NCBI RefSeq assembly: GCF_022899935.1
Contig: NZ_JALJCJ010000013.1
Location: forward strand, 1-36,309
Direction of reading: 5' to 3'
Source: Shinella curvata
Lineage (GTDB): Bacteria > Pseudomonadota > Alphaproteobacteria > Rhizobiales > Rhizobiaceae
Length of the DNA stretch: 36,309 bases
Position 1 is the first letter of the stretch; each line of letters begins with the position of its first letter. The notes beneath the pieces are model-generated. The model had not been told where the DNA came from, did not search any database, and was given only the letters and a program-made list of their open reading frames with translations. Below, piece after piece: positions 11,450-34,781 of this stretch. A program made the translations under genes and the position numbers.

Positions 11450-11462
11450 GCAGGGCGAAGCG

Positions 11463-14279: not shown

Positions 14280-14309
14280 GAAAGGCTCCGTCGCGATCGT
14301 GGAGGATGC

Positions 14310-14336: not shown

Positions 14337-14343
14337 TGTCCGG

Positions 14344-20363: not shown

Positions 20364-21275
20364 TTATCGCTCGAAAGGCTCCCCGAGCGAGGCGACGCCA
20401 TTGAGCTTGAGCAGGCGCCGGTCGGCGGAGATGATGCCGAGCACGATGATGGTGACGATGTAGGGCAGGCTCGACAGGAGTTGCGAAGGCACATCGAGAC
20501 CGGTCGTCTGGGCGGCAAGGCTCATCAGGGAGACGGCGCCGAACAGGCAGGCGCCGAGGAAGACGCGCCCCGTCAGCCAGGTGCCGAAGACGACGAGGGC
20601 AATGGCGATCCAGCCGCGGCCGGCGATCATGCCGTCAGCCCAGAGCGGCGTATAGACCACCGAGGCATAGGCGCCGGCGAGGCCCGCCATCATGCCGCCG
20701 AAGGCGACGGCGGCGACCCTGACGGCGATGACCGGATAGCCGATGGCATTCGCCGCCTTGGGGTTTTCGCCGACGGCGCGGATGATGAGGCCGGTCTTGG
20801 TGAAGGCGAAGGTCGCCCAGATCGCCAGCGTTGCCAACAGCGACAACCAGACGACGATGTCCTGCGTGAAAAGGCCGCCGATGACGGGCAGATCGGAGAG
20901 GCCGGGAATGCCGATCTTTGGCAGGCCCTTCACCGTCAGGCTCTCGTAGCTCTTGCCGAACAGCGCGGAGAGACCCTGGCCGAGAATGCCGATGGCAAGG
21001 CCCGTCGCGACCTGGTTTGCGCGGAAGCCGAGTGCGATGAGGGCGAAGACGAGCGAGAGCAGCGCGCCGCAGACGCCTGCGGCGATGAAGGCGATGAAAT
21101 GCCCGCCACCATGATAGACGATGATGAAGGCGATGACCGCACCGAAGGCCATCAGACCCTCGACGCCGAGATTGAGCACGCCGGCGCGCTCGACCACCAG
21201 TTCGCCAAGCGCTGCGAGCAGGAAGGGCGTTGCCGCCGCCAGCATGCCGGCGAGAATGAATTCGACGGCGTTCAT
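20364..21275 (-). CDS. BMP-type ABC permease 2 (YufQ-like)
   Basis: Membrane subunit of 303 residues from the branched-chain/ribose-type permease family, in the group that pairs with BMP (PnrA-like) binding proteins. ERAGVLNLGVEGLMAFGA is the conserved early signature and about nine hydrophobic segments follow. ATG 21275 overlaps the stop of the other permease gene (ATGA) and has GGAG seven bases upstream. The longer frame from 21305 lacks a proper site. It is the last gene of the oxygenase/deaminase operon. Related transporters import purine nucleosides or nucleobases. Confidence 0.9.
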   Translation of the reverse strand: MNAVEFILAGMLAAATPFLLAALGELVVERAGVLNLGVEGLMAFGAVIAFIIVYHGGGHFIAFIAAGVCGALLSLVFALIALGFRANQVATGLAIGILGQGLSALFGKSYESLTVKGLPKIGIPGLSDLPVIGGLFTQDIVVWLSLLATLAIWATFAFTKTGLIIRAVGENPKAANAIGYPVIAVRVAAVAFGGMMAGLAGAYASVVYTPLWADGMIAGRGWIAIALVVFGTWLTGRVFLGACLFGAVSLMSLAAQTTGLDVPSQLLSSLPYIVTIIVLGIISADRRLLKLNGVASLGEPFER

Positions 21276-22366
21276 GACTGGCTCCGCGCGGTGGTATGCG
21301 GCCATTCGAGACGGTAGCGCACGAAGGCGACGGCGACGAGATAGGCGAGCAGAAGGCTGCCCTGGAAGACGCGAACGGCGGCGATCGGCAGGTTTGCCGA
21401 GACCATGGCATTGTCGCCGCCAATCGAGATCGCGGCCATCACCAGCGCGGAGACGACGATGCCGATGGGATGCAGGCCGCCGAGATAGGCGACGATGATC
21501 GCGGAATAGCCATAGCCGGTGGAAATCGAGCGCTGGAGCTGGCCGAGCGGACCGGCGACCTCCGCCGCTCCCGCAAGACCGGCAGCAAAACCGCCGATCA
21601 GGAGCGACAGCCAGATCGCCCGCCCCTCGCTGAAACCGGCATAGCCGGCCGCACGCGGTGCAAGGCCGCCGACCTGCAGCTTGTAGCCCATGAAGCTCTT
21701 CTGCATGAAGACCCAGGCGGCCAGCGACAGCACGATCGCGATCAGAAGCGAGACGTTGACGCGTGTACCGGCAAAGAGTGTGGGCACCATGGCATCATAC
21801 TGGAACATCACGGATTGCGGGAAATTGAAGCCGTTCGGATCCTTCCAGGGGCCGAGCAGCAGGTAATAGAGCAGCTGGGCGGCCACCAGGCTCAGCATCA
21901 GCGAGACAAGGATTTCGTTGGCGTTGAGCCGCACGCGCCAGAAGGCGGTTATGCCGGCCCAGAGCGCACCGCCGATGGCGCCGAGCAGCAGCATGGAAGG
22001 CCAGATCCAGCCGCCCGTCGCCTGTGGAAACCAGATCGGAATGGCGGAGGCGAAGATCGCACCGAGGATGAATTGCCCTTCCGCGCCGATATTGAACACC
22101 TTGGCGCGGAAGCCGATGGCGAGGCCCTGCGCGATGAGAAGCAGCGGCCCGGTCTTCAAGAGCACTTCGGAAAACGACGACCAGGAGAGGAAGGGTTCCA
22201 GCAGCATGGCATGCACGACGGCGGCGGGATCCCGGCCCATCAGTACATAGAGTGCGAGATTGAGCAGGATCGCAGCGGCGAGCGCCAGCGGCGGGGCGAG
22301 CAGCATCGCCTTGCGCGAGGCGCGCTCGCGGCGCACGAGATTGGGCAGAAAATGGGTCATGCTCAT
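21272..22366 (-). CDS. BMP-type ABC permease 1 (YufP-like)
   Basis: Partner permease, 364 residues, with an arginine-rich cytoplasmic N-terminus (LVRRERASRKA) and about nine to ten membrane segments. GFRAKVFNIGAEGQFILGA is the family signature, and FWRVRLNANEILVSLMLS is the coupling region. ATG 22366 overlaps the ATPase stop; ATG 22360 is an alternative two codons on. The longer open frame back to 22600 runs antisense-like text inside the ATPase gene and is not used. With the downstream permease it forms the channel of the BMP-dependent importer. Confidence 0.9.
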   Translation of the reverse strand: MSMTHFLPNLVRRERASRKAMLLAPPLALAAAILLNLALYVLMGRDPAAVVHAMLLEPFLSWSSFSEVLLKTGPLLLIAQGLAIGFRAKVFNIGAEGQFILGAIFASAIPIWFPQATGGWIWPSMLLLGAIGGALWAGITAFWRVRLNANEILVSLMLSLVAAQLLYYLLLGPWKDPNGFNFPQSVMFQYDAMVPTLFAGTRVNVSLLIAIVLSLAAWVFMQKSFMGYKLQVGGLAPRAAGYAGFSEGRAIWLSLLIGGFAAGLAGAAEVAGPLGQLQRSISTGYGYSAIIVAYLGGLHPIGIVVSALVMAAISIGGDNAMVSANLPIAAVRVFQGSLLLAYLVAVAFVRYRLEWPHTTARSQS

Positions 22367-23880
22367 GCGTCGGCCTTTTCCGGCTTTGCGCCCATCATGT
22401 AGCGGCCGATTTCTTCCGGCCTTGTATCGCGCGTCACCAGCGGCGGGCTGAGGCGGCCGTGATAGAGCACCTGGATCGTGTCGGCGAGTTCGAACAATTC
22501 TTCCAGTTCCTCGGAGATGACGAGGATCGCCATTCCGGCATTGCGCAGCGCGATCAGCCGCCGGCGGATGGCCGAGGCCGCACCGATATCGACGCCCCAA
22601 GTCGGCTGGGCGACGAAGAGCAGTTTTGGGGCCAGCATGATCTCGCGCCCGACGATGAATTTTTGCAGGTTGCCGCCTGAAAGCGCTCCGGCTTCCGTCT
22701 GGGGGCCGGGCGTGCGCACGTCGTAGTCGCGGATGCAGGTTTCGGCAAAAGCGGTGGCCTGCGCTCTATCCACCAGGCCGTTTTTCAGAAGCTTCAGCGG
22801 ATGGGCGGTGAGCAGGCCGTTCAGCACCAGCGACATTTCGGGCACGGCACCGCGACCGAGCCGGTCTTCCGGCACGAAGGCGAAGCCGCGCGCGCGCCGC
22901 GCAGCCGGGCCGAGCTGGCCGACATCGGCGTCCATCATGAAGATGCGGTCTTTCTCATGGCGGGAGAGCCGGGTCTCGCCGGAGATCAGCGCGGCGAGTT
23001 CGCTCTGGCCGTTACCGGAAACTCCGGCGATGCCGAGGATTTCGCCGGCCCGCACCGTCAGATTGATATCGGCGAGCGGGACGGCGAACGGATCGTCGGG
23101 CGTATGGTTCAGGCCGATGATCTCGAGCTGCTTGTCGCCGCCGGTCCGGGGTTCGGCGGGCATCGGCTCGGGCATGTCGCGGCCGATCATCATGCGGGCC
23201 AGATCATGCGCGTCGTGCTCACGCGGATCGACATTGCCGGTCACGCGGCCGGCACGCAGGATCGTTGCCCGGTCGCAGATTGCCCGGATTTCCTCCAGCT
23301 TGTGCGAAATGAAGAGAATGGACACGCCGCCATCGCGCAGGCGCCGCAGCGTGTCGAAAAGCCTCTCCACCAGCTGCGGCGGCAGGACCGAGGTCGGCTC
23401 GTCGAGGATCAGCAGTTTTGGATTGGTCATCAGGCAGCGGATGATTTCCACCCGCTGGCGCTCGCCGACCGAGAGCGCGTGCACATGGGCGAGCGGATCG
23501 ACCTCCAGGCCGAAATCGCGGCCGAGCGTGCGGATCCGCTCGGTCAGTTCTGCGGTCTTGCCGTGCACGACGAGGCGGATATTTTCCACCACCGTCAGGG
23601 TCTCGAACAGCGAGAAATGCTGGAAGACCATGCCGATGCCCTGTTTGCGGGCCTCGGCAGGGGAGGCGAGGGCGAGAGGCTCGCCCTGCCAGGTGGCTGT
23701 GCCATCGTCGGGCTGCTCGACGCCGTAGATGAGTTTCATCAGCGTCGATTTACCTGCCCCGTTCTCGCCGAGGATCGCGTGGATCGACCGGTCGGCCACG
23801 TCAAGGTCGATGCCCTGGTTGGCCTTGATCGGTCCGTAGCTCTTCGAGATGCCGCGCAGCGACAGGAGGGGCGGGGTCAT
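22363..23880 (-). CDS. Duplicated ABC ATPase of BMP-type importer (YufO-like)
   Basis: Two-domain ATPase of 505 residues like RbsA/MglA/YufO. Domain 1 is canonical: GENGAGKST (about 36-44), LSVGERQRVEI and LLILDEPTSVLPPQ, with FISHKLEEI as the switch His. Domain 2 has the altered Walker A GVSGNGQSE and LLFVAQPTWGVD (Gln instead of Glu), substitutions that are usual in this family and therefore not a defect. LSGGNLQKFIVGREI is its signature. The start ATG 23880 lies four bases after the binding-protein stop. Confidence 0.93.
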   Translation of the reverse strand: MTPPLLSLRGISKSYGPIKANQGIDLDVADRSIHAILGENGAGKSTLMKLIYGVEQPDDGTATWQGEPLALASPAEARKQGIGMVFQHFSLFETLTVVENIRLVVHGKTAELTERIRTLGRDFGLEVDPLAHVHALSVGERQRVEIIRCLMTNPKLLILDEPTSVLPPQLVERLFDTLRRLRDGGVSILFISHKLEEIRAICDRATILRAGRVTGNVDPREHDAHDLARMMIGRDMPEPMPAEPRTGGDKQLEIIGLNHTPDDPFAVPLADINLTVRAGEILGIAGVSGNGQSELAALISGETRLSRHEKDRIFMMDADVGQLGPAARRARGFAFVPEDRLGRGAVPEMSLVLNGLLTAHPLKLLKNGLVDRAQATAFAETCIRDYDVRTPGPQTEAGALSGGNLQKFIVGREIMLAPKLLFVAQPTWGVDIGAASAIRRRLIALRNAGMAILVISEELEELFELADTIQVLYHGRLSPPLVTRDTRPEEIGRYMMGAKPEKADA

Positions 23881-23884
23881 GGAC

Positions 23885-24982
23885 TTACTTCGGCAGCGGG
23901 GTGGTGACGCCCTTGACGTGCCAGTCCATGGCGACGATCTCGGCATCGGTCATGGTTGCGCCGGCCGCCACACCTTCGCTGCCGTCCGCCTTGGCGATCG
24001 GGCCGGCGAAGGGCGAGAAGCTGCCGTCGGCGATCTTGGTCTCGATATCCTTGATCTTCGTCATCATGTCAGCCGGAATGGCGGGGTTCCAGTCCGTCAC
24101 CTGCACGACCTTGTCGGCGACGCCGAGGAAGGCATTGGCCCCCTTGAAGGTGCCGGCGAGATGCGCCTCGACCGATGCCAGGAAGAAGGGCGACCAGTCG
24201 GTGGCGACGCAGCCGAGATAGGTCTTCTCGGCGTATTTCTTCATCGAGGAATTCAGGTTGAAGGAATAGACGCCTGCATCCTCGCAGGCCGCCACGACGG
24301 AGGGCGTGTCCTGCGCGTTGGAGAAGATCACGTCGCATTTCTGGGCGATCAGCGCCTTGGCCGCTTCCTGCTCCTTGGCCGGATCGAACCAGGAATTGAC
24401 CCAGACAACGGAGACTTCGATATCCGGATTGACAGCCTGGGCGCCGAGCGCGAAAGCATTGATCGAGGTGATCAGTTCCGGGATCGCGAAGGCCGAGACG
24501 GAGCCGAGCTTGCCGGTCTTCGAGACAGCGGCAGCCGCCATGCCGAGCAGATAGGTGCCCTGGAAATATTTTGCCGCGAAGGGCGAGAAGTTCGGCGCGA
24601 CTTGGAAGCCGGAGGCGTGCAGCACAGTAACGCTGGGGTCGCGGCGGGCCACCTGAAGCGCGCCGTTCTGATAGCCGAAGGAACCGGCGATCAGGAACTT
24701 GTTCCCGTCGGCCACCGTCTTGGTCATGATGCGGTCGGCATCGGGGCCTTCCATGATGTTTTCCAGCACGGTGACCTTCACCTTGTCGCCGTACTTGGCC
24801 TTCACCGGCTCCAGTCCGGCGGAAAGCGCGTGGCCCCAGCCCACGTCGCCGATCGGCGAGGGCACGACGAGCGTGATGCCGAGCGGCTCGTCGGCGGCAA
24901 AGGCAAGGCGGCTGCCGAGCGCGCCGGCAAGGCCGGTGGCGGCCGCGGCCTTCATCAGGTTTCTGCGGGTCAGCTTGGTCAT
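23885..24982 (-). CDS. BMP-family periplasmic binding protein
   Basis: Substrate-binding protein of the basic membrane protein (BMP/PnrA/Med) family, 365 residues. The N-terminus RRNLMKAAAATGLAGALGS is a Tat-type signal, cleaved near AFA-AD at residues 29-30. Conserved parts include GDVGWGHALSAGL, NKFLIAGSFGYQNG and FQGTYLLGMAAAAVSKTGKLG. VIFSNAQDTPSVVAACEDAG is in place of the ligand-loop region. Characterised BMP proteins bind purine nucleosides, so a purine-like ligand is reasonable. GAGGGA precedes ATG 24982, and the gene begins 24 bases after the deaminase stop. Confidence 0.92.
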   Translation of the reverse strand: MTKLTRRNLMKAAAATGLAGALGSRLAFAADEPLGITLVVPSPIGDVGWGHALSAGLEPVKAKYGDKVKVTVLENIMEGPDADRIMTKTVADGNKFLIAGSFGYQNGALQVARRDPSVTVLHASGFQVAPNFSPFAAKYFQGTYLLGMAAAAVSKTGKLGSVSAFAIPELITSINAFALGAQAVNPDIEVSVVWVNSWFDPAKEQEAAKALIAQKCDVIFSNAQDTPSVVAACEDAGVYSFNLNSSMKKYAEKTYLGCVATDWSPFFLASVEAHLAGTFKGANAFLGVADKVVQVTDWNPAIPADMMTKIKDIETKIADGSFSPFAGPIAKADGSEGVAAGATMTDAEIVAMDWHVKGVTTPLPK

Positions 24983-25006: not shown

Positions 25007-26377
25007 TCAGAATTCTACGGTGGCGAGCGCGGCTTCCGCGTCGGCGGCGAGCTTGGCCTCATCGAGGCCGGGGAATTCGCCGTTCTGCCAGACGATGCGG
25101 CCGTTGATCATCGTCATGTCCGTCGCCATGCCGATGCCGACGCGCGGGATCAGGCTTATCGGGTCATGCCGCGTGCCGACATAGTCCATGCGGCGCGTGT
25201 CGATGGCGAAGAGATCGGCGGCCATGCCGGGGGCGAGGCGGCCGATATCCGGCCGTCCGAGCAGGCTCGCACCACCCGTCGTGCCATAGCCGAGGAAATC
25301 GACGGGATCGGGCACGGGGTGCTTGCGTGTGGAGGCGACGAGGCATTGCAGCATATAGGCGGAATGCAGGCAGTGCATGAGGTTGGAATTATCGTTGGAG
25401 GCGGCACCATCGCAGCCGAGGCCGACGCGCAGGCCAAAGGCTTCCATGGCGGGAATGTCGGTGACCTCGGCGCCGACGAGATAGACCGGCTCCGGGCAAT
25501 GGGAGACGCCGGTGCCGCTTGCCGCCATGGTCTTCAGCTCATCATGCGTCAATTCCCAGCAATGGGCGTAGAAGGCATCCGGGCCGGCGAAGCCCAGTTC
25601 CTCCAGATAGTCGACGGTGCGCTTGCCGTGGCGCGCTGCGATAACAGGGCTTTCGCCCTCGCCGACATGGGTGTGCAGCAAGACGCCGCGGTCGCGCGCC
25701 AGCGCGACGGACTCCACGAAGGTCTCGCGGTAACAATTGACCGGCTGGCAGGGGGCGACGACGACCTGGCGCATGCTGAAGGGCTTTGCGTCGTGATAGG
25801 TGTCGATCAAGCGGGCGCAATCGGCGATGAACTCGTCCGTCGTTTCCAGCATGGCGTCGGGGATGGTCGATCCCTCGGATTTCGGCAGCGTGTTGCCGCC
25901 GCGGCCGGCGTGGAAACGCATGCCGAGCAGCTCGGCTGCCTCGAATTGCCGGTCGATCAGCCGCTTTCCGGCATGACGCGGGAAATTGTACTGGTGGTCG
26001 AAGGCGGTGGTGCAGCCGTGCTTGATCAGCTCGGCCATGGCCGTGACGGAGGAATGGTAGAAGCATTCCTCGTTGAGCTGTGAGAAGATCGGATAAATGC
26101 GGTCCAGCCACTCGATGACGGAGAGTTTCGTCCAGTCGAGATCGGCGTGGTTGCGCACGAAGCACTGGAAGAAATGGTGATGCGTGTTGACGAGGCCGGG
26201 ATAGACGAACCAGCCGGTAGCATCCTGGACCTGAACGCCGGGGCCGGCGGACAGGTTTTCGCCGATCGCCTTGATGGCGGGGCCTTCGGTGAGGAGGTCG
26301 ACATTGCGCCGGACCGCGGGGCCGTTGCCGTCATTGACGATCACGGCGGCGCAATTCTTCAGGAGATGGCCGCTCAT
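25007..26377 (-). CDS. Amidohydrolase, purine/pterin/triazine deaminase type
   Basis: Metal-dependent amidohydrolase of 456 residues (SsnA/guanine-deaminase-like, COG0402 type). Metal-site motifs are PGLVNTHHHFFQ, LLHTHVGEGE, YAHCWELTHDE and GVSHCPEP, plus GLGCDGAASNDNSN, whose Asp is catalytic. The G-x-D-G-x-A/S-SND-x-SN form is shared by 8-oxoguanine deaminase, isoxanthopterin deaminase and hydroxyatrazine hydrolase. This points to hydrolytic removal of an amino group from a purine, pterin or triazine ring. ATG 26377 comes one base after the GST stop; GTG 26389 is also in frame. Its place between an oxygenase and a BMP importer suggests the imported heterocycle is its substrate. Confidence 0.88.
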   Translation of the reverse strand: MSGHLLKNCAAVIVNDGNGPAVRRNVDLLTEGPAIKAIGENLSAGPGVQVQDATGWFVYPGLVNTHHHFFQCFVRNHADLDWTKLSVIEWLDRIYPIFSQLNEECFYHSSVTAMAELIKHGCTTAFDHQYNFPRHAGKRLIDRQFEAAELLGMRFHAGRGGNTLPKSEGSTIPDAMLETTDEFIADCARLIDTYHDAKPFSMRQVVVAPCQPVNCYRETFVESVALARDRGVLLHTHVGEGESPVIAARHGKRTVDYLEELGFAGPDAFYAHCWELTHDELKTMAASGTGVSHCPEPVYLVGAEVTDIPAMEAFGLRVGLGCDGAASNDNSNLMHCLHSAYMLQCLVASTRKHPVPDPVDFLGYGTTGGASLLGRPDIGRLAPGMAADLFAIDTRRMDYVGTRHDPISLIPRVGIGMATDMTMINGRIVWQNGEFPGLDEAKLAADAEAALATVEF

Positions 26378-26378
26378 G

Positions 26379-27041
26379 TCACGTCTCACTCTTTTCGAGC
26401 TGTGGCTCGGGTTTCAGTTCGTGCAGCCTGTGGATGCCGGGCATTTCGATGAAGCCAGGAAGCGAGCGAAGCCGGCGCGACCAGAGGCGGATAGCCGGAT
26501 AGGGATCGAGCGACACGCCGCCATCGGGCGCGAGCGCCACATAGGGGAAACAAGCAATATCGGCGACGGTCGGCCGGTCCGCCGCCAGGAATTTCTGTCC
26601 GCGCTCCGCCTGTTCGACGAGGCCGAGTTCCAGTTCGCGTAGGGCCGCAATGCCCGAGGATTGAAGGGCGCCGATATCGCCGGGCCGAAGAAGCATTTCG
26701 TGCAGGCGCGCACCGCCGAGGCTGGACGTCAGCCGGCCGGAGAAAGACAGCCATTGCTGTACGCGGGCGGCTTCTTTTGCATCGCTGCCGGCGAGCCAGT
26801 CCGGTGCCGCCTTCGCCGCGAGATAGACCAGCATGGCCGAGGATTCGGTGAGCAGCACGTCGCCGTCTTCGAGGATGGGGATGGAGCCGGCCGGGTTGAG
26901 CGCCAGGAGCTCCGGGCCGCGATGTTCGAGGCCGGGATGGAAATCGACGGCGCGCAGATCGAGCGTGGTGCCCGTCAGCGCCGCCATCAGGCGCACCTTG
27001 TAGCAGCTCGGCGAGAGAATGTAGTCGTATAGCTTCATCAT
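26379..27041 (-). CDS. Glutathione S-transferase family protein (NdmE-like context)
   Basis: GST of 220 residues with both domains. The N-terminal thioredoxin fold starts MKLYDYILSPSCYKVRL, with Ser10/Cys12 at the usual catalytic position. NPAGSIPILEDGDVLLTESSAMLVYL carries the cis-Pro and the ESSA glutathione-binding motif. The C-terminal helix has RPTVADIACFPYVAL. The start overlaps the stop of the oxygenase gene (ATGATG). In the caffeine system of Pseudomonas putida CBB5, the GST homologue NdmE is needed to assemble the N7-demethylase NdmC with the reductase NdmD. A similar structural role is inferred here, though an ordinary glutathione-dependent step remains possible. Confidence 0.9.
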   Translation of the reverse strand: MMKLYDYILSPSCYKVRLMAALTGTTLDLRAVDFHPGLEHRGPELLALNPAGSIPILEDGDVLLTESSAMLVYLAAKAAPDWLAGSDAKEAARVQQWLSFSGRLTSSLGGARLHEMLLRPGDIGALQSSGIAALRELELGLVEQAERGQKFLAADRPTVADIACFPYVALAPDGGVSLDPYPAIRLWSRRLRSLPGFIEMPGIHRLHELKPEPQLEKSET

Positions 27042-27883
27042 TGTGCCACCAGCTGCGCACCATAGGTAAAGTTGTGACGCTTCAGCCAGCGCCGGTAGGC
27101 GACGGAGGTCAGGTCCGCGCGCGTCGGCATTTCCATGCCCGGATCGAGCGGCAGGAGGCGCGGCACCTGGTTTTCCAGGATCGAACGATCCTGCAGGAAA
27201 ATCGTCTGCTGGAAATGGATGAGATCGGTCATCGGCGTGTCATCGTCGAACAGCGCCATCCACGGCCAGACGTCGCAGAGATCCTCGGCGAGCGGCTGCA
27301 CGAACAGCGTGATGACGTCCCATTCGCTCGGCCGCGGCGGGCAGGTCTTGTAGAGCACGGTCGAGGTCGGTCCGGCCACGCGATACATATATTGCGTGGT
27401 GATACCGCCGCTCGCCGATTTCGCGGCCTGCGGCTGGTAGAACTCGACCTGCGTGGCCCAGACTTCATCGACATCCTCGCGAATCTCGACCTTGTAGGCC
27501 TGCACTTCCGTATGTGGCTCGGCGCCGAGAATATCGGTGTGCACGAAGGGGAAATGGGCGATGTCCAGAAAGTTCTCGACGGCGCGCAGCGGCGAGCAGC
27601 GCACGCGCACCACGCCGACATCGACGAAGCGGCGGCCCGGCTGGTCGGCCTCGGGAATGGCGAAGAGCTTCTTCTTGGGATCGCCCAGCGATGTCCAGAC
27701 ATGGCCGTAGCGCACGCAGACCGGCAGGCTGCGGCCCGTGCCGTCGGTCACTTTGGCGTCGCCGTTGTCATCGCGCGCAACCACGATTGGTTCGCCCATC
27801 AACATGGTCTTGCGGCCGGCCGCGTCGAGCTGGCCGAAGATACCGACGGGGTACCATTCATCGAACATGGGGCCTACGGTCAT
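27038..27883 (-). CDS. Rieske-less oxygenase catalytic domain (NdmC-like)
   Basis: Protein of 281 residues corresponding to the catalytic half of a Rieske non-haem iron oxygenase. It opens with FDEWYPVGIF and GEPIVVARDDNG, the usual first strands of the alpha subunit. It then jumps to VRYGHVWTSLG, which normally follows the Rieske domain; no CxH...CxxH motif exists anywhere. The mononuclear iron site is kept: Asp107, His110 and His115 in ENFLDIAHFPFVH, with Asp232 (FLQDRSILENQ) as a probable third ligand. It should need electrons from a Rieske centre in trans, and the next upstream gene supplies one. Overlaps of 4 bases on both sides show tight coupling. NdmC, which removes the N7-methyl of 7-methylxanthine, is a known Rieske-less relative. 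Confidence 0.88.
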   Translation of the reverse strand: MTVGPMFDEWYPVGIFGQLDAAGRKTMLMGEPIVVARDDNGDAKVTDGTGRSLPVCVRYGHVWTSLGDPKKKLFAIPEADQPGRRFVDVGVVRVRCSPLRAVENFLDIAHFPFVHTDILGAEPHTEVQAYKVEIREDVDEVWATQVEFYQPQAAKSASGGITTQYMYRVAGPTSTVLYKTCPPRPSEWDVITLFVQPLAEDLCDVWPWMALFDDDTPMTDLIHFQQTIFLQDRSILENQVPRLLPLDPGMEMPTRADLTSVAYRRWLKRHNFTYGAQLVAQ

Positions 27884-28509
27884 TGGGCGGCTCCCTTCTT
27901 CTGGATATCCTCGGCCCTGCGGCGGAGCGCTTCGGCGGTGCGGGCCGCCGCGATGCGTTCGGCGGGGCCGGCATCGGCGGCGATCAGCACGTGGATGAGG
28001 GTTTCGCCCTCCCGCGTGGACGACAGTAGGAGGCGGATGTCTCCGGCGTCCAGCAGCCCCTCTGCCGTCGCCTTTGCGCCGGCGGCAGCCTCGATGGCGG
28101 CAATGTCGACGAAGGCGGTGATCGAACGCAGGGGCACCAGGCCGGCAAGGCCCGGCGGCGTGGCGGCGGGCTCGCCGACGGCGACCCAGACCACGCCATC
28201 CGCTTCCGCTACAGGATGGGTGACGGTGCGGATGGCTTCAGGCGGCGTCAGTCCGGGATGGGCGGGGATGCGAAGACAGTTCCCGGCCTGTCCATAGCTC
28301 CAGCCGTGATAGATGCAGGACAGCGTCTCGCCGCGCACGAAGCCGTGCGAAAGGCTCATCCCGCGATGTGGACATCGATCCGCTGAGGCGGCGACACGAC
28401 CCGACTGGCTGCGCCAGAGTGCAAGGGGGCCGGCGGGAATGCGCGCCGGCAGGACGGTTCCGGAGGGCAGATCCGAAGAAAGGGCGACCGGCACCCAGGA
28501 GCCCGTCAT
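27880..28509 (-). CDS. Stand-alone Rieske [2Fe-2S] protein with C-terminal extension
   Basis: Protein of about 209 residues. Residues 5-112 form a Rieske domain: Cys46-Pro-His48-Arg-Gly, then Cys65-Ile-Tyr-His68-Gly-Trp with the standard 16-residue spacing. VVWVAVGEP follows, as in oxygenase alpha subunits. There is no iron-binding catalytic motif, so it cannot be an oxygenase alone. About 95 residues follow (rich in Ala, ending ALRRRAEDIQKKGAAQ) that I do not recognise; they could be a docking domain or a shrunken catalytic remnant. It overlaps the Rieske-less oxygenase gene by 4 bases, so the two probably form one electron-transfer pair. The start is uncertain: ATG 28509 or TTG 28536, neither with a clear ribosome-binding site. 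Confidence 0.88.
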   Translation of the reverse strand: MTGSWVPVALSSDLPSGTVLPARIPAGPLALWRSQSGRVAASADRCPHRGMSLSHGFVRGETLSCIYHGWSYGQAGNCLRIPAHPGLTPPEAIRTVTHPVAEADGVVWVAVGEPAATPPGLAGLVPLRSITAFVDIAAIEAAAGAKATAEGLLDAGDIRLLLSSTREGETLIHVLIAADAGPAERIAAARTAEALRRRAEDIQKKGAAQ

Positions 28510-28666: not shown

Positions 28667-28957
28667 CTATCCACCGGCATTGCCGACGGGCCTGCGGTCT
28701 ATCGTCTCGACCCACACGTCTATGGGACCGAGAAGGCAGCCGACCTCCAGCATGTCGATCAGTTCCGGTGCGCCGGAAAGGTCGATTTCGATACGATCGG
28801 GACTGTGATGGGTGATGGCCTGCGTGACGCCGAGCTTGGCGGCGTGGCGGCGGATCCAGGGCACGAAGCTGTCGGCATCGAGTTCGCCGTGGATCGTCAT
28901 GCGTTCTTTTAGAGGATTTTGGGCTTCACCCGCCATGGGATGCTCCAAGACTGCCAT
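28667..28957 (-). CDS. Acylphosphatase-fold protein lacking catalytic residues
   Basis: Small protein of 96 residues. Residues 20-90 follow the acylphosphatase layout: strand MTIHG, helix FVPWIRRHAAKLGV, DRIEIDLSG, helix APELIDMLEVG and GPIDVWVETI. The phosphate-binding loop, normally GxVQGVGFR, is GELDADSFV, so the catalytic Arg is Val32. The catalytic Asn of the V-R-N-x-P-D segment is replaced by His50/His51. It is therefore probably not an acylphosphatase but a partner or ligand-binding protein. GGGAAGG precedes ATG 28957. It is the first gene of the oxygenase/deaminase/transport operon, 130-160 bases before the Rieske gene depending on that start. Confidence 0.75.
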   Translation of the reverse strand: MAVLEHPMAGEAQNPLKERMTIHGELDADSFVPWIRRHAAKLGVTQAITHHSPDRIEIDLSGAPELIDMLEVGCLLGPIDVWVETIDRRPVGNAGG

Positions 28958-29094: not shown

Positions 29095-30174
29095 CTATGC
29101 CGAACGGCGCAGCATCAGTTCGGATTTGAGCAGGATCTGCTCCCTGCCGAACGCCGGATGATCCGCTTCGTCAAGCTTGTGCAGCAGGAGCTGGATCGCG
29201 AGGCGGCCGATCTCGTCGTAGTTCTGCGCGACGGTGGTGATCGGCGGGCAGGCATATTGCGAAAGCGGATGGTCGTCGTGGCCGGCGACGCGTAGGTCAT
29301 AGTCGTTGCCGTGGCCAATCTTCAGGCCCTTTTGCCAGGCGGCGGCGAGGACACCGAAGGCAAGACGGTCGTTGGCGCACAGGATGGTGCGGCTTTTGAG
29401 ATCGGCCGGCTTTTCGAGCAGGCGACTCGCTTCCTCGAAGGCGAAGTGTTCGAAGTCCCAGCTTGCCGCTTCGGAGACGGGCAGGACATGCGGCTCCATG
29501 CCAAGCCGTGCCATGGCTTCGAGATAGGCGGTCTCGCGGGTGAGCGCGTTGGTGTTGACATGCGGCATGCCGAAATAGCAGGGCGGCTCGCCGGAACGGC
29601 AGAGATAGTCGACGATCAGCCCGAAACTCTGGCGATTGTCCGTGCCGACGAAGGCTGAGGTCTCGTCGAGCGGTGAGTCGACATAGACGAGCGGGATGGA
29701 CTGCCCAAGCTGTTCCAGCGTCTTCGGGCGGGCGGTCGAACCGAGCGGGGCGATGATGGCACCGGCAACATTCATCGACTTAAATGTCTTGATCGCATTG
29801 TCCTCGATATCGGCACGGCCGTCCGCCGAGAGCACGAAGGCGTGGAAGCCAGCCTCGTTGGCGATGAGTTCGATGCGTCGTGTCAGCGCCATGTAGAACG
29901 GGTCGATGGAGGTGGGTACGACGATGCCGATGATGTTCGAGCGCCGGCGGTTGAGGTTGACGGCAAAAATGTTCGGCCGGAACCCGGATTTCTTCAGCGC
30001 CTCTTCGATGGTGTCGCGCGTCTTCTTGCGCACGGAGGACGGGTCGTTGAAGTATTTCGACACCGTGGGCCGCGACAGGCCGACGAACTCGGAAAAATCC
30101 TCCATGGTTCTGATCGACTTGGCCAAGCGGCTGCTCCCTGCGGTTCCGGTATTCGCCTTCTTAACCGGCCTCAT
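29095..30174 (-). CDS. LacI-family transcriptional regulator
   Basis: Repressor-type regulator of about 359 residues. The DNA-binding domain covers about residues 20-75. It has TMEDFSEFVGLSRPTVSKYFN as the helix-turn-helix, then hinge text SGFRPNIFAVNLNRRRSNIIGIVVP. The effector domain is a periplasmic-binding-protein fold, with RIELIANEAGFHAFVLSADG and ILCANDRLAFGVL as conserved blocks. The N-terminus is about 20 residues longer than in LacI. ATG 30174 is used although no clear ribosome-binding site precedes it; TTG 30207 is another option. As the last gene after the two dehydrogenases, it probably controls the polyol cluster through the sites near 33494-33704. Confidence 0.88.
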   Translation of the reverse strand: MRPVKKANTGTAGSSRLAKSIRTMEDFSEFVGLSRPTVSKYFNDPSSVRKKTRDTIEEALKKSGFRPNIFAVNLNRRRSNIIGIVVPTSIDPFYMALTRRIELIANEAGFHAFVLSADGRADIEDNAIKTFKSMNVAGAIIAPLGSTARPKTLEQLGQSIPLVYVDSPLDETSAFVGTDNRQSFGLIVDYLCRSGEPPCYFGMPHVNTNALTRETAYLEAMARLGMEPHVLPVSEAASWDFEHFAFEEASRLLEKPADLKSRTILCANDRLAFGVLAAAWQKGLKIGHGNDYDLRVAGHDDHPLSQYACPPITTVAQNYDEIGRLAIQLLLHKLDEADHPAFGREQILLKSELMLRRSA

Positions 30175-30219
30175 TTCGCGGGAAAAGCTGAAATCGAGGC
30201 CGGTCAAGCGGTTCTGCGA

Positions 30220-31242
30220 TCAGTCGGCGACGTACTGGACTTTCATCGTCGCCGGGTCCGTCGGCTTCTTGACGAAGAAGGGTAGCACCTCGTCGAGTGT
30301 TAGCCGATGCGAGACGAGCCGGGCCATGCGTCCGTCGTCCTTTTCGAGGATGGCGAGCGCGTCGGGGATGTTCCGGTTCAGAGAATGCGAGCCGGCGAGC
30401 TTCAGCTGGCGGCGGAAGATCTCAAAGGGGGCGACGGAGATGCGGGCATCCGGTGCGCAGACACCGAAAAGCAGCGCCGTGCCGCCGTCGGCCACGAGAT
30501 TGATCATGCCTTCGACGACGCTGGCGATACCCGTCGCATCCGCGACGAAATCGTAGGCCTGTCTATTGGCTGCAAGCGCGGTGGAGCCGGAAACGATCCC
30601 GCCGAGGCCGAGATCGGCCGCGAATGCGAGCCGGCTCTCGTTGATGTCGGCGACCGTGACTTTTTCGACGCCCTCGGCTTTCAGCGACAAGGCAAGCAGC
30701 AGGCCGATCGGCCCTGCGCCGATGACGAGGGCTTCCTGCGGTCGTGCCGCGCCGCTGCGCAGGCCCGCGCTGTTGAGGCCGTTCACGACGCAGGCAAGCG
30801 GCTCCGCAAGTGCGGCGACCGGGAAGGGCAGGTCGCCGATGTCGTGCAGCTGATCGGCGCGCACGCAGCTGTATTCGGCAAAACCGCCATTGTGCGAGAC
30901 CCCGTAGGCCTTCAGGTCGCGGCAGAGGTTGGTCAGGCCCTTGCGGCAGGACGGGCAGCTGCCGCATGGCAGGTTCGGATCGACGGCGACACGCGCGCCG
31001 ACGCGAAGGCCGGTGACATCGGTGGCAATGGCCTCCACCACGCCGGCATATTCGTGGCCCGGCACCAGCGGAAAGGCGCCGTCGCCGTAGCGGGCGTGCA
31101 ATACGTCGATATCCGTGTGGCAAAGGCCCGATGCCTTGACCTTGACGAGGGCGTGGCCGGCGGGCAGGTCGCCGACCTCGAGGTCGGCAAGCCTTGCTTT
31201 GCCCTTGGCGGTGAACTGGATCGCTCGCATGATGCGCGTCAT
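30220..31242 (-). CDS. Zinc-dependent polyol dehydrogenase (D-altritol 5-dehydrogenase candidate)
   Basis: Medium-chain alcohol dehydrogenase of 340 residues. Catalytic zinc ligands are Cys41 (GLCHTD), His63-Glu64 (PGHEYAG) and Glu147 (ALAEPLACV). The structural zinc site is Cys93, Cys96, Cys99 and Cys107. VIGAGPIGLLLAL (about 173-185) is the NAD-binding turn. In the Agrobacterium D-altritol/galactitol pathway, a dehydrogenase of this Pfam family (PF00107) oxidises D-altritol to D-tagatose next to a PfkB kinase and a PF08013 protein, exactly the neighbours seen here. The start is three bases after the SDR stop. A related sorbitol or galactitol activity is possible. Confidence 0.87.
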   Translation of the reverse strand: MTRIMRAIQFTAKGKARLADLEVGDLPAGHALVKVKASGLCHTDIDVLHARYGDGAFPLVPGHEYAGVVEAIATDVTGLRVGARVAVDPNLPCGSCPSCRKGLTNLCRDLKAYGVSHNGGFAEYSCVRADQLHDIGDLPFPVAALAEPLACVVNGLNSAGLRSGAARPQEALVIGAGPIGLLLALSLKAEGVEKVTVADINESRLAFAADLGLGGIVSGSTALAANRQAYDFVADATGIASVVEGMINLVADGGTALLFGVCAPDARISVAPFEIFRRQLKLAGSHSLNRNIPDALAILEKDDGRMARLVSHRLTLDEVLPFFVKKPTDPATMKVQYVAD

Positions 31243-31245
31243 GGT

Positions 31246-32016
31246 TCAGCTCATCCAGTTGCCGCCGTCGACATTGTATGTCTGGGCGAGAATGTAGTCG
31301 CTGTCGCCGGAAGCGAGAAAGACGGCAAGGCCCTTGATGTCGTCGGGCGTGGCAAAGCGGCCGATCGGCACGGACTTCGCGACTGCGGCCTTCTTCTCTC
31401 CGGGTTTCAGGCCTTCCCATTCGGCGAACTTGGCATCGACGATGTCCCAATGTTCGCCGTCCACGACGCCGGGCGCGATCGCGTTGACATTGATGCCGTA
31501 TTTTACCAGTGCGAGTGCTGCGGACTGCGTGGCCGAGATGATCGCGGCCTTGGAGGCGCAATAGAGCGTTACCAAGGCTTCGCCGCGCCGACCGGCCTGG
31601 CTTGCCATGTTGATGATCTTGCCGCCGCGACCGCGGGCGATCATCACGTTCGCCACCGCTTTCATGGTGAAAAGCGGTCCTTTGAGGTTGACGTCGAAGA
31701 CGCGCTGGTAGCTCTCCTCGGTGATCGCCTGGATCGGCGCCATGTCGAAGATTGCGGCATTGTTGACGAGGATGTCGATACCGCCGAAATCGGCATCGAT
31801 CCTGCCGACGACAGCCTCGATGTCTCGGAGATCGGTAACGTCGATCCGCATGGCGGTCGCAGCCGGGCCGATGGAGGCGGCCGCTTCCTCAGCGCGGGCT
31901 AGATTGATGTCGGCGATGACGATCTTCGCGCCTTCGGCGGCGAAGGCTTCGGCAAAGCCGAGGCCGATGCCGCGTGCACCGCCGGTAATCAGCGCCACCT
32001 TGTCCTTGAGTTTCAT
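31246..32016 (-). CDS. SDR polyol dehydrogenase (SmoS/galactitol dehydrogenase type)
   Basis: Classical short-chain dehydrogenase of 256 residues. The cofactor motif is TGGARGIG (11-18), and Asp36 after strand 2 favours NAD. NNAA at 85-88, Asn110, Ser139, Tyr152 and Lys156 (YCASK) form the active site. GKIINMASQAGRRGEALVT, APGVVDGEHWD and the final YNVDGGNWMS are the hallmarks of the sorbitol/galactitol dehydrogenase SmoS group. It oxidises a hexitol to a ketose in the cytoplasm. Galactitol to L-tagatose is reported for a close Agrobacterium relative, and sorbitol to fructose for SmoS; sequence alone does not decide. It lies after the polyol-binding protein and its hairpins. Confidence 0.9.
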   Translation of the reverse strand: MKLKDKVALITGGARGIGLGFAEAFAAEGAKIVIADINLARAEEAAASIGPAATAMRIDVTDLRDIEAVVGRIDADFGGIDILVNNAAIFDMAPIQAITEESYQRVFDVNLKGPLFTMKAVANVMIARGRGGKIINMASQAGRRGEALVTLYCASKAAIISATQSAALALVKYGINVNAIAPGVVDGEHWDIVDAKFAEWEGLKPGEKKAAVAKSVPIGRFATPDDIKGLAVFLASGDSDYILAQTYNVDGGNWMS

Positions 32017-32093
32017 GTTTCGTCTCCATATGCGACGGGCAAAGCCGGTGCCGCGAATTCCAACGGTTGATGGTGTCGGCCTGAGCGGGAAAA

Positions 32094-32147
32094 CCCGGCG
32101 CCGAAGCGCCGGGCCCTCCTGGGAGGGCCTGCGGGTTGATCCGCAGG
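32094..32147 (-). terminator. Three stacked hairpins between binding protein and SDR gene
   Basis: On the minus strand the first stem met is CCTGCGG/CCGCAGG (32128-32147, six-base loop). Next comes GGCCCT/AGGGCC (32112-32129). Last is CCCGGCGC/GCGCCGGG (32094-32113), which reads with a TTCG loop and is followed by TTTT. The last stem is terminator-like. Neighbouring stems share two bases, so they compete. They probably make the binding-protein message more abundant than the downstream dehydrogenases. Confidence 0.65.
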
Positions 32148-32155
32148 CGGGAGCT

Positions 32156-33469
32156 TTACTTGATGTAGCCGGCGCGCGTCATGTCGCGCTCGACCTGGGC
32201 TTGCGCCGCCTCGAGCGCGGCATCGACCGTCTGCTGGCCGGCAAGCGCTGCGCTGACCTGCTGGCCGACGAAAGTGCCGATCGCCTGGAATTCCGGTATG
32301 GCGACGAACTGCACGCCGGTGTAGGGCACCGGATCCTTGGTCGGCTTCGACGGGTCGGCGGACATGATCGCCTCCAGCACCGTTGCAGCGAAGGGCGCGG
32401 CCTTCTGGTATTCCGGCAGGGCGTAGGTGGATTTGCGCGTGCCCGGCGGCACCGCGACCCAGCCTTCGCTCTCGCCGACGAGCTTCACATAGTCCTTGGA
32501 GGTCGCCCATTTCAGGAAGGATTTTGCGACCTCGGCCTTCTGCGATGTCGCCGGGATCGCGAGGTTCCACGACCAGGACCAGCTGGAGCCGTTGGCCGTT
32601 TCGGCGATCGGCGCGCGGGTGAAGGCGATCTTGTCGGCGACCTGGCTCTGCTTGGGATCGTAGACGCGGCCGGCGGCCGATGTCGCATCGATCCACATGG
32701 CGCAATGGCCGGTCGCAAAGAGTGTCTGGTTCTCGTTGAAGCCGTTGGCGGTGGCGCCTTGCGGGCCGTAGTTGGTCAGCAGCGCGACATAGTCGGTGAT
32801 CGCCTTCTTCCAGGCATCCGAGTTGAGCTGCGGTTTCCAGTCCATGTCGAACCAGCGGCCGCCATAGGCGTTCACCATGGTGCCGACGAAGGCCATGTTT
32901 TCACCCCAGCCCGGCTTGCCACGCAGGCAGATGCCGTATTGCTGCTTGTCCTTGTCGGTCAGCTTGGCGGCGAATTCCTTGATCTGTTCGTAGGTCGGCT
33001 GTTCCGGCATCGTAAGGCCTGCCGCCTCGAACAGGTCCTTGCGGTAGAGCGTGAACGAGCTTTCCGTATAGAAGGGCACGGCATAGAGCTTGCCGTCGAC
33101 CGTCAGGCCGGCCTTGATGGGCTCCAGGAGGTCGCCGTAATCATAGTCGTCACCGAGATCGTCGACCGGTGCCAGCCATCCCTGCTTGCCCCAGATCGGC
33201 GCCTCGTAGCCGCCGATGGTCATGATGTCGAACTGGCCGCCCTTGGTGGCGATGTCGGTCGTCACGCGCTCGCGCAGCACGTTTTCCTCCAGCACGATCC
33301 AATTGATCTTGTTTCCGGTTTCCTTCTCCCAGGCGCCGGAAAGCTTCTGCATGATGATCATGTCGCCGTTGTTGACAGTGGCGATGCTGATGTCTTCGGC
33401 CTGCGCAAGGCCGGTCATCAGGCCGAGGCCGACGGCGGACGACGATAGAATGCGGGTCATGTTCCTCAT
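32156..33469 (-). CDS. Polyol ABC transporter substrate-binding protein (SmoE/MtlE-like)
   Basis: Periplasmic binding protein of 437 residues from the extracellular solute-binding family 1, sorbitol/mannitol type. A Sec signal (MRNMTRILSSSAVGLGLMTG) ends at AQA, about residue 24. FDIMTIGGYEAPIWGKQGWL and YAVPFYTESSFTLYRKDLFEAAGL match the polyol-binding subgroup. GGRWFDMDWKPQLNSDAWKKA is another block. AGGAGGA lies seven bases before ATG 33469. The matching permease begins at 36103 on the other strand, so the transporter genes are divided between two divergent operons. The likely ligand is a hexitol such as galactitol or D-altritol. Confidence 0.9.
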   Translation of the reverse strand: MRNMTRILSSSAVGLGLMTGLAQAEDISIATVNNGDMIIMQKLSGAWEKETGNKINWIVLEENVLRERVTTDIATKGGQFDIMTIGGYEAPIWGKQGWLAPVDDLGDDYDYGDLLEPIKAGLTVDGKLYAVPFYTESSFTLYRKDLFEAAGLTMPEQPTYEQIKEFAAKLTDKDKQQYGICLRGKPGWGENMAFVGTMVNAYGGRWFDMDWKPQLNSDAWKKAITDYVALLTNYGPQGATANGFNENQTLFATGHCAMWIDATSAAGRVYDPKQSQVADKIAFTRAPIAETANGSSWSWSWNLAIPATSQKAEVAKSFLKWATSKDYVKLVGESEGWVAVPPGTRKSTYALPEYQKAAPFAATVLEAIMSADPSKPTKDPVPYTGVQFVAIPEFQAIGTFVGQQVSAALAGQQTVDAALEAAQAQVERDMTRAGYIK

Positions 33470-33493
33470 TGGTCCGTTCCTCCTTTACGGATG

Positions 33494-33519
33494 TTCACGC
33501 ATAAAATGTCATGCGTAAA
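33494..33519. promoter_or_regulatory. Operator-like inverted repeat at polyol-binding-protein promoter
   Basis: TTCACGCAT (33494-33502) and ATGCGTAAA (33511-33519) form an inverted repeat with eight of nine positions matching, separated by eight bases. It begins four bases downstream of the -10 box and covers the probable transcription start of the minus-strand operon, an ideal place for a repressor. The TTTACGC half-site recurs upstream of the plus-strand kinase, and the LacI regulator in the cluster is the natural candidate. Confidence 0.55.
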
Positions 33520-33522
33520 GTT

Positions 33523-33552
33523 TTTATCGAGTGAAGTGGCGGTTATTGTCAA
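33523..33552 (-). promoter_or_regulatory. Promoter of the polyol-binding-protein operon
   Basis: On the minus strand a perfect -35 TTGACA (33547-33552) is followed after 18 bases by GATAAA (33523-33528) as -10. Transcription would begin near 33515, inside the inverted repeat, about 45 bases before the ATG at 33469. Confidence 0.55.
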
Positions 33553-33690
33553 GCGGCAAAATTCGCATCCTGCCTGATGCGGTGACGCGTTGCGGCACCA
33601 ATCGGCTGTTTCAAAAGAGAATAAGTGGCAAAAGTACATTTTCTGACCGAGTGTTTGTGCTTTCAGCCTACGGACCTGTTTGGTCATAAA

Positions 33691-33740
33691 TTTACACGCG
33701 TAAAAAATTATTGACTTTTATTGGGCGCTTCCGTTATCAC
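33691..33740 (+). promoter_or_regulatory. Operator and promoter of the kinase operon
   Basis: TTTACACGCGTAAA (33691-33704) is a near-perfect palindrome with one mismatched pair and shares the TTTAC/GTAAA arms with the repeat at 33494-33519. Six bases later comes TTGACT (33711-33716) as -35 and, after 18 bases, TATCAC (33735-33740) as a weak -10. Transcription would start near 33747. This supports co-regulation of the two divergent arms. Confidence 0.5.
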
Positions 33741-33791
33741 CGATAGGAGATGATCGCGGCTGCCTCGGGGTCCTGCGACGGGGAGGATGCA

Positions 33792-34781
33792 TTGAAAAGA
33801 GCAAGCACATTGGCGCCGGAGGCCCTGGGGCCGACGGTGACCGTCGGCGAAATCCTGGTGGAAATCATGGCGACGACGGTCGGCGCCGGATTCCTGTCAC
33901 CCCAGCCGCTTGTCGGCCCGTTCGCCAGCGGCGCGCCGGCGATCTTCATCGATCAGGTCGCGCAATTCGGCGGGGCGGCGGGTATCGTCGCGGCCGTTGG
34001 TGCGGATGACTTTGGCACGCTCAATGTGGAACGGTTGCGGACGGATGGCGTCGATGTCTCGGCCGTCGCGATCGTGCCTGGCAAGCCGACCGGCAGCGCC
34101 TTCGTGCGGTATCGGGCCGACGGTTCGCGTGACTTCGTTTACAACATCACCCATTCCGCGGCCGGGGATACGAGCATGACGGCGGCGGCGCGGACGCTTA
34201 TCGCGCGCGGGGGACATGTCCATGTCATGGGCTCCGCCTTCGCGATTCCTGGCATCGGTGCGGTCATTCTCGAGGCTGTCGCCTCCATCAGGGCGCGCGG
34301 AGGCTCGGTCTCCTTCGATCCGAATATCCGCAAGGAACTGGCCCAGGGCGACGAAGGCCGCAGGCTCATCGACGACATGCTGGCGGTGACCGATCTCCTG
34401 CTGCCCTCGGGCGACGAATTGCTTGTTGCCGCCGATGCGGCGACGGAACCTGCCGCCATCGCGCGCCTGCTCGATCTCGGTATCGGCGAAGTCGTGCTGA
34501 AGCGTGGCAGCGCCGGCTCCAGCCACTTCAGCCGCGCGTTCGGTCGCGTCGATTGCCCGGCCTTTGCCGTGGAGGAAGTCGACCCGACGGGGGCGGGTGA
34601 CTGTTTTGGCGCGGCCTATCTCACCAGCCGCCGCGCGGGTTTGCCGCCCGCCCGAGCGCTCCTCTATGCCAATGCCGCGGGTGCCCGCACGGTTACCCGC
34701 CAGGGACCGATGGAAGGGGTTTCCAGCCGCGAGGACCTTGAGCGTTTCATCGCGGCGGCCGGTCGGGAGGTGAAGCAATGA
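33792..34781 (+). CDS. PfkB-family sugar kinase (D-tagatose kinase candidate)
   Basis: Ribokinase/PfkB-family kinase of 329 residues. [10 protein letters not shown] is the N-terminal signature and [17 protein letters not shown] the substrate-side block. [20 protein letters not shown] near the C-terminus contains the catalytic Asp and anion hole (second PfkB signature). In the Agrobacterium altritol/galactitol pathway, a PF00294 kinase phosphorylates D-tagatose to D-tagatose 6-phosphate, and the neighbours here fit that role. Start: TTG 33792 has GGGAGG five bases upstream. ATG 33750, 14 codons earlier, has GGAG touching the ATG and would be nearly leaderless given the promoter near 33735, so TTG is preferred with moderate certainty. 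It overlaps the next gene by four bases. Confidence 0.85.

Follow-up and report, generated by a model that had tools for sequence, protein, structure and literature searches.

The window analysed here, a 36,309-nucleotide stretch of the Shinella curvata genome (assembly GCF_022899935.1, contig NZ_JALJCJ010000013.1, positions 1 to 36,309), carries on its minus strand a gene module in which the two redox sites of a predicted Rieske oxygenase are encoded by separate genes. Transcription runs from a gene for a 96-residue acylphosphatase-like protein (28667..28957), the first of the module, through those for a free-standing Rieske protein of 209 residues (27880..28509) and a Rieske-less, NdmC-like catalytic subunit of 281 residues (CAT; 27038..27883) to an NdmE-like protein of 220 residues with the GST_N and GST_C domains of glutathione S-transferases (GST; 26379..27041), an 8-oxoguanine-deaminase-like amidohydrolase of 460 residues (25007..26389) and an ATP-binding cassette (ABC) importer. 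The Rieske and CAT genes overlap stop to start by the four bases ATGA, as do the CAT and GST genes.

CAT contains the sequence E103-N-F-L-D107-I-A-H110-F-P-F-V-H115, in which the non-heme iron motif N104-x2-D107-x2-H110-x4-H115 occupies positions 27539..27574, and a late carboxylate region, Q231-D232. Asp107 is the presumed bridging aspartate, and His110 and His115 are presumed to be iron ligands. Asp232 (27188..27190), the presumed third ligand, was aligned by phmmer with the aspartate of the SxtDIOX/SxtT helix E-E-D/E-Q-D-I-R-I-L, and both it and the iron motif are invariant in an alignment of eight CATs (A1). No CxH...CxxH Rieske motif was found in CAT. The Rieske gene, read from an ATG at 28509, encodes the cluster ligands C46-P-H48 and C65-I-Y-H68 (28306..28374), which are invariant in our alignments, and no D..H....H iron motif was found in its product; a TTG at 28536 is an alternative start that would give 218 instead of 209 residues. 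Pfam placed VanA_C in CAT alone (68.2 bits) and Rieske in the partner alone (76.5 bits). An initial annotation of this DNA had described a 281-residue protein that keeps the iron site without CxH/CxxH and an overlapping upstream gene with CPHRG and CIYHGW but no iron site, and its coordinates and motifs were right. At the level of sequence it is confirmed that CAT has a complete 2-His-1-carboxylate site and no Rieske ligands, and that the overlapping upstream gene encodes a [2Fe-2S] Rieske protein.

A contig scan of one genome per species gave 470 places with CAT relatives, the best 80 of which were kept; with two plasmid loci (L109 and L110) these make up the 82-locus motif set. Among the best 80, the closest named relative of the window's CAT belongs to a Shinella (96%). 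Rieske, CAT and GST genes stand in conserved order in all 80 loci, so that the NdmE-type component is always present as a gene, and 79 loci each hold the deaminase gene, a complete BMP binding protein gene (L013 ends at a contig edge) and the acylphosphatase-like gene (no match in L052). N..D..H....H and QD...L.NQ are kept by 82/82 CATs, and the Rieske motif occurs in none of them. Conversely, D..H....H occurs in 0/82 Rieske partners and the Rieske motif in all; the motif script saw it in 81, the miss in L003 being a start-site error that the full 218-residue open reading frame (ORF) corrects. Judged by these counts, the separation of the motifs between the chains is not chance. A complete one-chain alpha subunit, which according to the initial annotation would make the two genes redundant, was not seen in the 82 loci or the window with a pattern that found 9 of 13 controls (missing L082, L084, L087 and L089). 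On another reading CAT is an inactive remnant and the Rieske protein serves some one-chain oxygenase as an ordinary Rieske ferredoxin. We consider this highly improbable. A single domain of ∼100 residues would be expected of such a ferredoxin, and the protein has 209 residues and a second folded domain.

The nearest characterised counterpart of the catalytic subunit is NdmC. In the accessible text of PMC4408171, NdmC is described as lacking a Rieske cluster and NdmD as carrying an extra one, the GST-like NdmE is absolutely required in NdmCDE, and homologous ndmCDE clusters of unknown function are reported in Sinorhizobium and Mesorhizobium. For comparison we used a caffeine-type cluster of Paraburkholderia caffeinilytica p1 (L207), in which NdmC-, NdmD- and NdmE-like genes are accompanied by two one-chain oxygenases and two formaldehyde genes; the ndm labels are ours, from layout and similarity, since the record itself does not bear those names. 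CAT is 47% identical to the NdmC-like protein, the Rieske protein 35% identical to the start of the NdmD-like protein and GST 44% identical to the NdmE-like protein. The proposal of a Rieske-less catalytic subunit akin to NdmC with a Rieske centre in trans is borne out by this identity and by the 82 loci, as is, by Pfam and the L207 comparison, the view that the Rieske partner differs from the NdmD type: its 209 residues include no Pfam reductase domain. The accompanying description as a two-component oxygenase would suit the Rieske–CAT pair, with no reductase seen at the locus, but missed the NdmE-like GST and the acylphosphatase-like protein.

Alignment A1 was searched in 297 genomes of the window's order (Hyphomicrobiales, to judge by named relatives) at a threshold of E 1e-40, and 50 genomes gave a CAT-profile match at that value or better. 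Fifty-two stretches from 49 genomes other than the window's were examined, leaving out a second place in G293: 30 have a free Rieske gene (L164 was so classed by hand, its over-extended ORF exceeding the length limit of the script), 15 a Rieske–reductase fusion, four a one-chain oxygenase (336–347 residues) and three a CAT without a partner. By genome, the free-Rieske form was found in 31 of the 297 (window included), the NdmD fusion form in 15 and a one-chain match only in four, one-chain enzymes under the score threshold falling outside this count. The free-Rieske form is the commonest form of the family in the sampled genomes of the order, and many of its carriers are bacteria of soil and roots. 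The suggestion that it may be a new arrangement stands insofar as no NdmD-type fusion is present here, but with 31 free-Rieske against 15 fusion genomes it is a widespread arrangement and not a local one. GST was found in 29/30 free-Rieske stretches (the one without it, L156, stops within the Rieske gene), in 14/15 fusion stretches (not L169) and in 0/4 one-chain stretches (L198 is just 5.8 kb long). The three stretches with a partnerless CAT (L162, L188 and L189) come from genomes that have a free-Rieske locus elsewhere (G237, where it lies on an adjoining stretch, G099 and G278), and several fusion-type loci contain two CATs per NdmD, so one Rieske partner may serve several CATs.

Some of these loci deserve separate mention. 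On Sinorhizobium pSymA, three (L114) and two (L116) CAT paralogues lie beside a single NdmD-type gene, suggesting that several specificities draw on one electron donor. The one-chain oxygenases of L195–L198 (336–347 residues) adjoin a BMP importer gene in three of four cases and a guanine-deaminase-like gene in two of four; with no GST found, they are possible undivided counterparts of the module.

In a 75-row tree, all Rieske-less CATs fall on one side of a 96/96 branch from the one-chain enzymes, and 35 of 36 free-Rieske rows form one group with four partnerless rows (98/92). L194, the free-Rieske row left over, is a long branch of unsure place, as are Variovorax and Klebsiella, and the label of L114, whose partner gene is cut by the end of the stretch, was set to fusion type by hand. 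Relatives differ in what is fused to what. Rieske and reductase are joined in L113, L115 and L116, while all components are separate, with a reductase in the cluster, in L208 and L213. A Variovorax paradoxus plasmid (L117, 9289–12436) carries a free Rieske gene, a CAT fused to a complete reductase (604 residues) and GST, the mirror image of the NdmC/NdmD arrangement, and on a Komagataeibacter nataicola plasmid (L208) a single cluster comprises a PDR/VanB reductase, an acylphosphatase-like ORF and free Rieske, CAT and GST genes. These differing fusions argue that the Rieske protein, CAT and a reductase would be parts of one machine. L208 also contains, at 2993–5926, a second, divergent CAT–Rieske–GST set beside the PDR/VanB reductase; in the Rieske protein of this set one cluster cysteine appears to be lost (CxxH reads G-x-x-H). 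At L216 (6604–7860), a Rieske-Fer2 fusion of 418 residues, in which no NAD-binding domain was found, adjoins CAT and GST.

The first gene of the module follows the free-Rieske form closely. Its product gives a weak profile match to acylphosphatase (PF00708) at 17.3 bits, under the 22.5 cut-off. The arginine that we take to be catalytic in acylphosphatases stands at the equivalent place in just 2 of the 16 rows of an alignment of the family (A8), in which G24, A39, G62, L66, D68, E71, L76, G77 and P78 are invariant and C74 is kept in 15 rows; the family motif is (L/I/V)-D-x2-E-x2-C-(S/L)-L-G-P. Over the 297 genomes, a profile of A8 gave 30 matches of at least 75 bits, after which the scores drop to 53 bits or less, presumably ordinary acylphosphatases. 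Strong matches (at least 75 bits) were found in 30/31 free-Rieske genomes and 0/266 others (Fisher P 2e-40), or against 0/15 fusion-type genomes (Fisher P 3e-11); as A8 was built from free-Rieske loci, matches there arise partly by construction, and it is the absence elsewhere, together with the phylum sample described below, that is informative. The exception is G226 (L194), a free-Rieske genome without a strong match. In G010 (L204) the gene is on another contig, and five of the 30 matches read through one TGA, the ORFs at those loci being open. A weakness of this co-occurrence is that the genomes counted are relatives and not independent events, although they span 12 family codes.

A phylum sample of 398 genomes, partly overlapping the 297, gave the acylphosphatase-like protein in eight. 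Four of these are new (G537, G591, G506 and G643), and in all four the gene lies near CAT, GST and Rieske genes (L209–L213); the CAT ORF of G591 is short (189 residues) and may be broken or misread. Fifteen genomes of the sample have a strong CAT match (E under 1e-90), nine with a free Rieske gene, five with a fusion and one (G582) with a Rieske protein joined to Fer2, no NAD domain having been found in it; eight weaker matches, among them the one-chain enzymes L218 and L219, were left out of the count. The acylphosphatase-like gene is present in 8/9 free-Rieske genomes and in 0/6 of the fusion genomes and G582 together, the exception being G636 (L217), which was read as free-Rieske from an over-extended ORF and has no such gene. 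By its distribution, the acylphosphatase-like protein appears to belong specifically to the free-Rieske form; that it acts in assembly or electron delivery is our guess from the same distribution.

What reduces the Rieske protein was sought at the loci and in whole genomes. No ORF with a Fer2-type motif was found among the non-overlapping ORFs of 81 loci, and tblastn with three parts of reductases, one taken from the Variovorax fusion and two of NdmD type, gave no match at the 80 close loci; its sole match was a 34-residue piece in L114, a distant S. meliloti locus ending inside an NdmD-like gene. A reductase lies nearby in 2/30 free-Rieske stretches (L179 and L194), both of which also hold a one-chain oxygenase to which it may belong, and in G591 (L213) a reductase gene follows GST, the acylphosphatase-like gene being present as well. 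Against the proposal of a shared donor it must be said that no reductase is known to serve the module.

Could the locus then be plain NdmCDE, with an NdmD encoded elsewhere serving CAT and the local Rieske gene redundant? The partnerless CATs of L162, L188 and L189 are in its favour, since partners may act at a distance. In the window's genome, however, none of the Rieske matches lies in frame with one to PF00175 or PF00111 (10, 3 and 14 matches). Of the two genes with both NAD and Fer2 domains, one stands in what we read as a phenylacetate cluster (L118) and the other adjoins a Rieske oxygenase gene (L119). Moreover, G180 and G223, two free-Rieske genomes with an estimated completeness of 100%, each encode a single PF00175 protein, taken to be a ferredoxin reductase of the Fpr type; no Fer2 match is in frame with it, and no Fer2-fused reductase was found in either genome. 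The missing Fer2 partner is the stronger point, because NdmD-type reductase parts score only 24–32 bits with PF00175 but 51–59 bits with Fer2. We regard plain NdmCDE as highly improbable. G180 and G223 seem to need no dedicated fused reductase, and ferredoxin and Fpr are a plausible donor there.

The two proteins appear to bear traces of each other. The Rieske protein consists of a Rieske domain (residues ∼1–112) and what looks like a shrunken catalytic-type domain (∼113–209). Its model is confident (predicted local distance difference test (pLDDT) 95; second domain block 92–98, last block 85) and matches one-chain oxygenases structurally over its full length. In profile comparisons, the middle region of NdmD matched the C-terminus of the Rieske protein (P 1.6e-8) and the catalytic domain of CAT (P 7.7e-6), unrelated controls giving P 0.22–0.27; when NdmD middle regions and Rieske C-termini were combined in one profile, this matched CAT at P 7e-4 and 26% probability. 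It is because of the two NdmD matches and the structural match that we read the Rieske C-terminus as a remnant. On the side of CAT, residues ∼7–66 resemble a Rieske fold without the cluster-binding part; its N-terminus matched that of the Rieske protein in hhalign (P 5e-7; GST control P 0.15), and in an earlier profile attempt with the two proteins the N-termini alone matched (P 9e-4). Profiles and the model of the Rieske protein thus indicate that each protein keeps a shrunken, degenerate copy of the domain that the other uses.

Several results pull in the other direction. The direct profile match between the Rieske C-terminus and CAT was not significant (P 0.061). Set against a small profile of six one-chain oxygenase rows, the Rieske C-terminus gave P 0.64 and the NdmD middle region P 0.23, neither being a match. 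The model of CAT is poor (pLDDT 54.7 from 43 near-identical rows; only residues ∼10–75 are mostly confident) and its fold matches superpose badly (root-mean-square deviation ∼8–14); owing to this, its catalytic domain was not used.

The non-significant direct match would also suit a single gene cut in two, as would the position of the Rieske gene upstream of CAT, which is the order of the one-chain enzyme, and the fact that both proteins are closest to one solved subfamily. A clean cut would, however, leave no remnant of the other's domain in either protein. We therefore regard fission as unlikely, and the initial description of one oxygenase split into two genes probably does not amount to a simple cut. 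The Rieske protein and CAT look like two formerly complete alpha subunits, paralogues from which opposite parts were lost.

The rest of the module points to purine bases. The importer consists of a BMP/PnrA-type substrate-binding protein with a twin-arginine translocation (TAT) signal (23885..24982; PF02608, 141.7 bits), an ATPase (22363..23946; PF00005 in two stretches, its true start perhaps further in), a first permease (21272..22600; PF02653 over residues 144–420, the ORF start probably overshooting) and a second permease (20364..21305; PF02653), all on the minus strand; the order of the ATPase and permease genes is conserved. The best solved relative of the binding protein is AtzT (6pi5, E 1.7e-78), which according to the accessible text of PMC6834077 holds guanine with a dissociation constant of 110 nM and also binds 2-hydroxyatrazine. 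Of the seven guanine contacts named there, five are identical in the window's protein (Ser101, Phe102, Glu169, Trp198 and Asn222). The deaminase has as its best solved relative 7ww2, an 8-oxoguanine deaminase/hydroxydechloroatrazine ethylaminohydrolase (E 6.8e-86). In the survey, a deaminase-type gene or importer lies near the module in 19/30 free-Rieske stretches, a guanine-deaminase-like gene in 9/30. Since NdmC is the nearest characterised catalytic relative, our best guess in this purine context is N-demethylation of methylated guanine or xanthine, the favoured substrate being a methylated base of guanine or xanthine type such as 7-methylguanine or 7-methylxanthine. A free-Rieske module on a Rhizobium grahamii plasmid (L111, 1–13544) is arranged in two divergent operons with an importer and several amidohydrolases read as purine deaminases, two of which were matched to the window's deaminase.

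The purine assignment has its difficulties. Two of the seven guanine contacts differ (tyrosine to Trp49, and asparagine to Asp225 next to a gap), the deaminase scores 369.5 bits with PRK08203, under the curated cut-off of 532, 11/30 free-Rieske stretches are without any hint of a purine gene or importer, and none of the genes of the module was identified as a formaldehyde gene. The same split enzyme might instead hydroxylate or dealkylate another purine-like ring, such as an 8-oxo- or N-alkylpurine, a pteridine or an s-triazine-like base. The second name of the deaminase relative and the 2-hydroxyatrazine bound by AtzT speak for such a ring, as does the fact that the best solved relatives of both oxygenase proteins, SxtT and SxtDIOX/GxtA, belong to the saxitoxin pathway. 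On the other hand, the closest characterised split relatives are methylxanthine N7-demethylases, and guanine-deaminase-like genes adjoin the module in the nine stretches mentioned. We hold another ring to be a possibility of some substance, though a doubtful one, and retain a methylated guanine- or xanthine-type base as the favoured substrate.

The remainder of the window contains other gene groups. Next to the module, 29095–36046 is a sugar-alcohol type cluster with a LacI regulator, an alcohol dehydrogenase, a sugar-binding protein, a short-chain dehydrogenase/reductase passing the L-iditol 2-dehydrogenase model, a PfkB kinase and a GatZ/KbaZ-like protein; close matches to the LacI regulator and dehydrogenase adjoin the module in just one of the 80 relatives (L002). 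TRAP transporter genes (DctM and DctP) lie at 12346–15399, and the plus-strand genes at 772–12236 include those for an amidase, dipeptide-type ABC permeases, an M20 peptidase, a choline-kinase-like protein and an inositol-monophosphatase-family protein.

From gene content, motifs, remnants, conservation and co-occurrence we infer a complex, an electron path, a donor, a reaction and a substrate. The module probably encodes a hetero-oligomeric Rieske oxygenase of the NdmCDE kind with its redox sites on different chains, an N-demethylase of imported methylpurines that draws on a shared donor. The ABC importer would bring in the purine base, and the free Rieske protein would have its [2Fe-2S] cluster reduced by a reductase or ferredoxin that the cell supplies from outside the module. 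Within a ring of Rieske and CAT subunits, this cluster would come to lie next to the iron of CAT, and electrons would pass through Asp107 to the Fe(His110, His115, Asp232) site. There the iron would activate O2 and hydroxylate an N-methyl group of the purine, which would then be lost as formaldehyde; the deaminase could act before or after demethylation. The GST-like protein would be structural, as postulated for NdmE, and the acylphosphatase-like protein would perhaps help in assembly or in docking the shared electron donor. A fuller version, in which two mutually crippled alpha-subunit paralogues, one retained for its Rieske centre alone and the other for its iron site alone, sit in one mixed ring and, in the free-Rieske branch, a dead acylphosphatase-like protein is an obligate subunit for a shared ferredoxin/reductase in place of the fused NdmD reductase, we offer only tentatively, as less likely to be right than wrong.

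Transfer of electrons from one chain to its neighbour is a feature for which Rieske oxygenases are studied. When the two centres belong to different chains, each half can be changed, swapped or reduced independently of the other, and how Rieske reduction gates O2 activation becomes directly testable. The family would show an enzyme rebuilt from two complementary, half-lost copies, with the acylphosphatase-like protein as a predicted new component of its free-Rieske form. Many rhizobia may, to judge by the operon, scavenge methylated purines.

By titles and the beginnings of abstracts, no description of an NdmC-like subunit with a free Rieske partner, and no account of an acylphosphatase-like protein in such a system or of reciprocal remnants, was found in the open-access literature. 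The known systems nearest to the module each share part of its plan. SxtT and SxtDIOX/GxtA are the best solved relatives of CAT and the Rieske protein by sequence, and also by fold for both models, that of CAT being poor, but carry both centres in one chain where the window has two. NdmA and NdmB, the N1- and N3-demethylases, are Rieske oxygenases that N-demethylate purines, each chain again having both centres; according to PMC10380055, which also gives the NdmCDE complex as 3:3:3, their electrons are thought to pass from one subunit to its neighbour, over 12.1 Å as against 44.7 Å within the monomer. The Rieske ferredoxins of three-component dioxygenases (e.g. 2qpz) are free-standing, electron-delivering Rieske proteins like that of the window, but without its second domain.

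Such ferredoxins serve an oxygenase that has its own Rieske centre. NdmCDE of Pseudomonas putida CBB5, a methylxanthine N7-demethylase, has in common with the module a Rieske-less catalytic subunit, a Rieske centre supplied by another chain, a GST-like third protein and the purine context. It differs in that NdmD joins Rieske and reductase in one chain, whereas the Rieske protein of the window is free and no reductase was found at its locus, and in that the acylphosphatase-like protein, present in the module, occurs in 0/15 fusion-type stretches. A Rieske centre in trans with a GST-like protein is already known as a kind from NdmCDE, and the free-Rieske form is a variant of it; by its sequence the module would work like NdmCDE, and it is not classed as NdmCDE because the defining Rieske–reductase fusion is absent.

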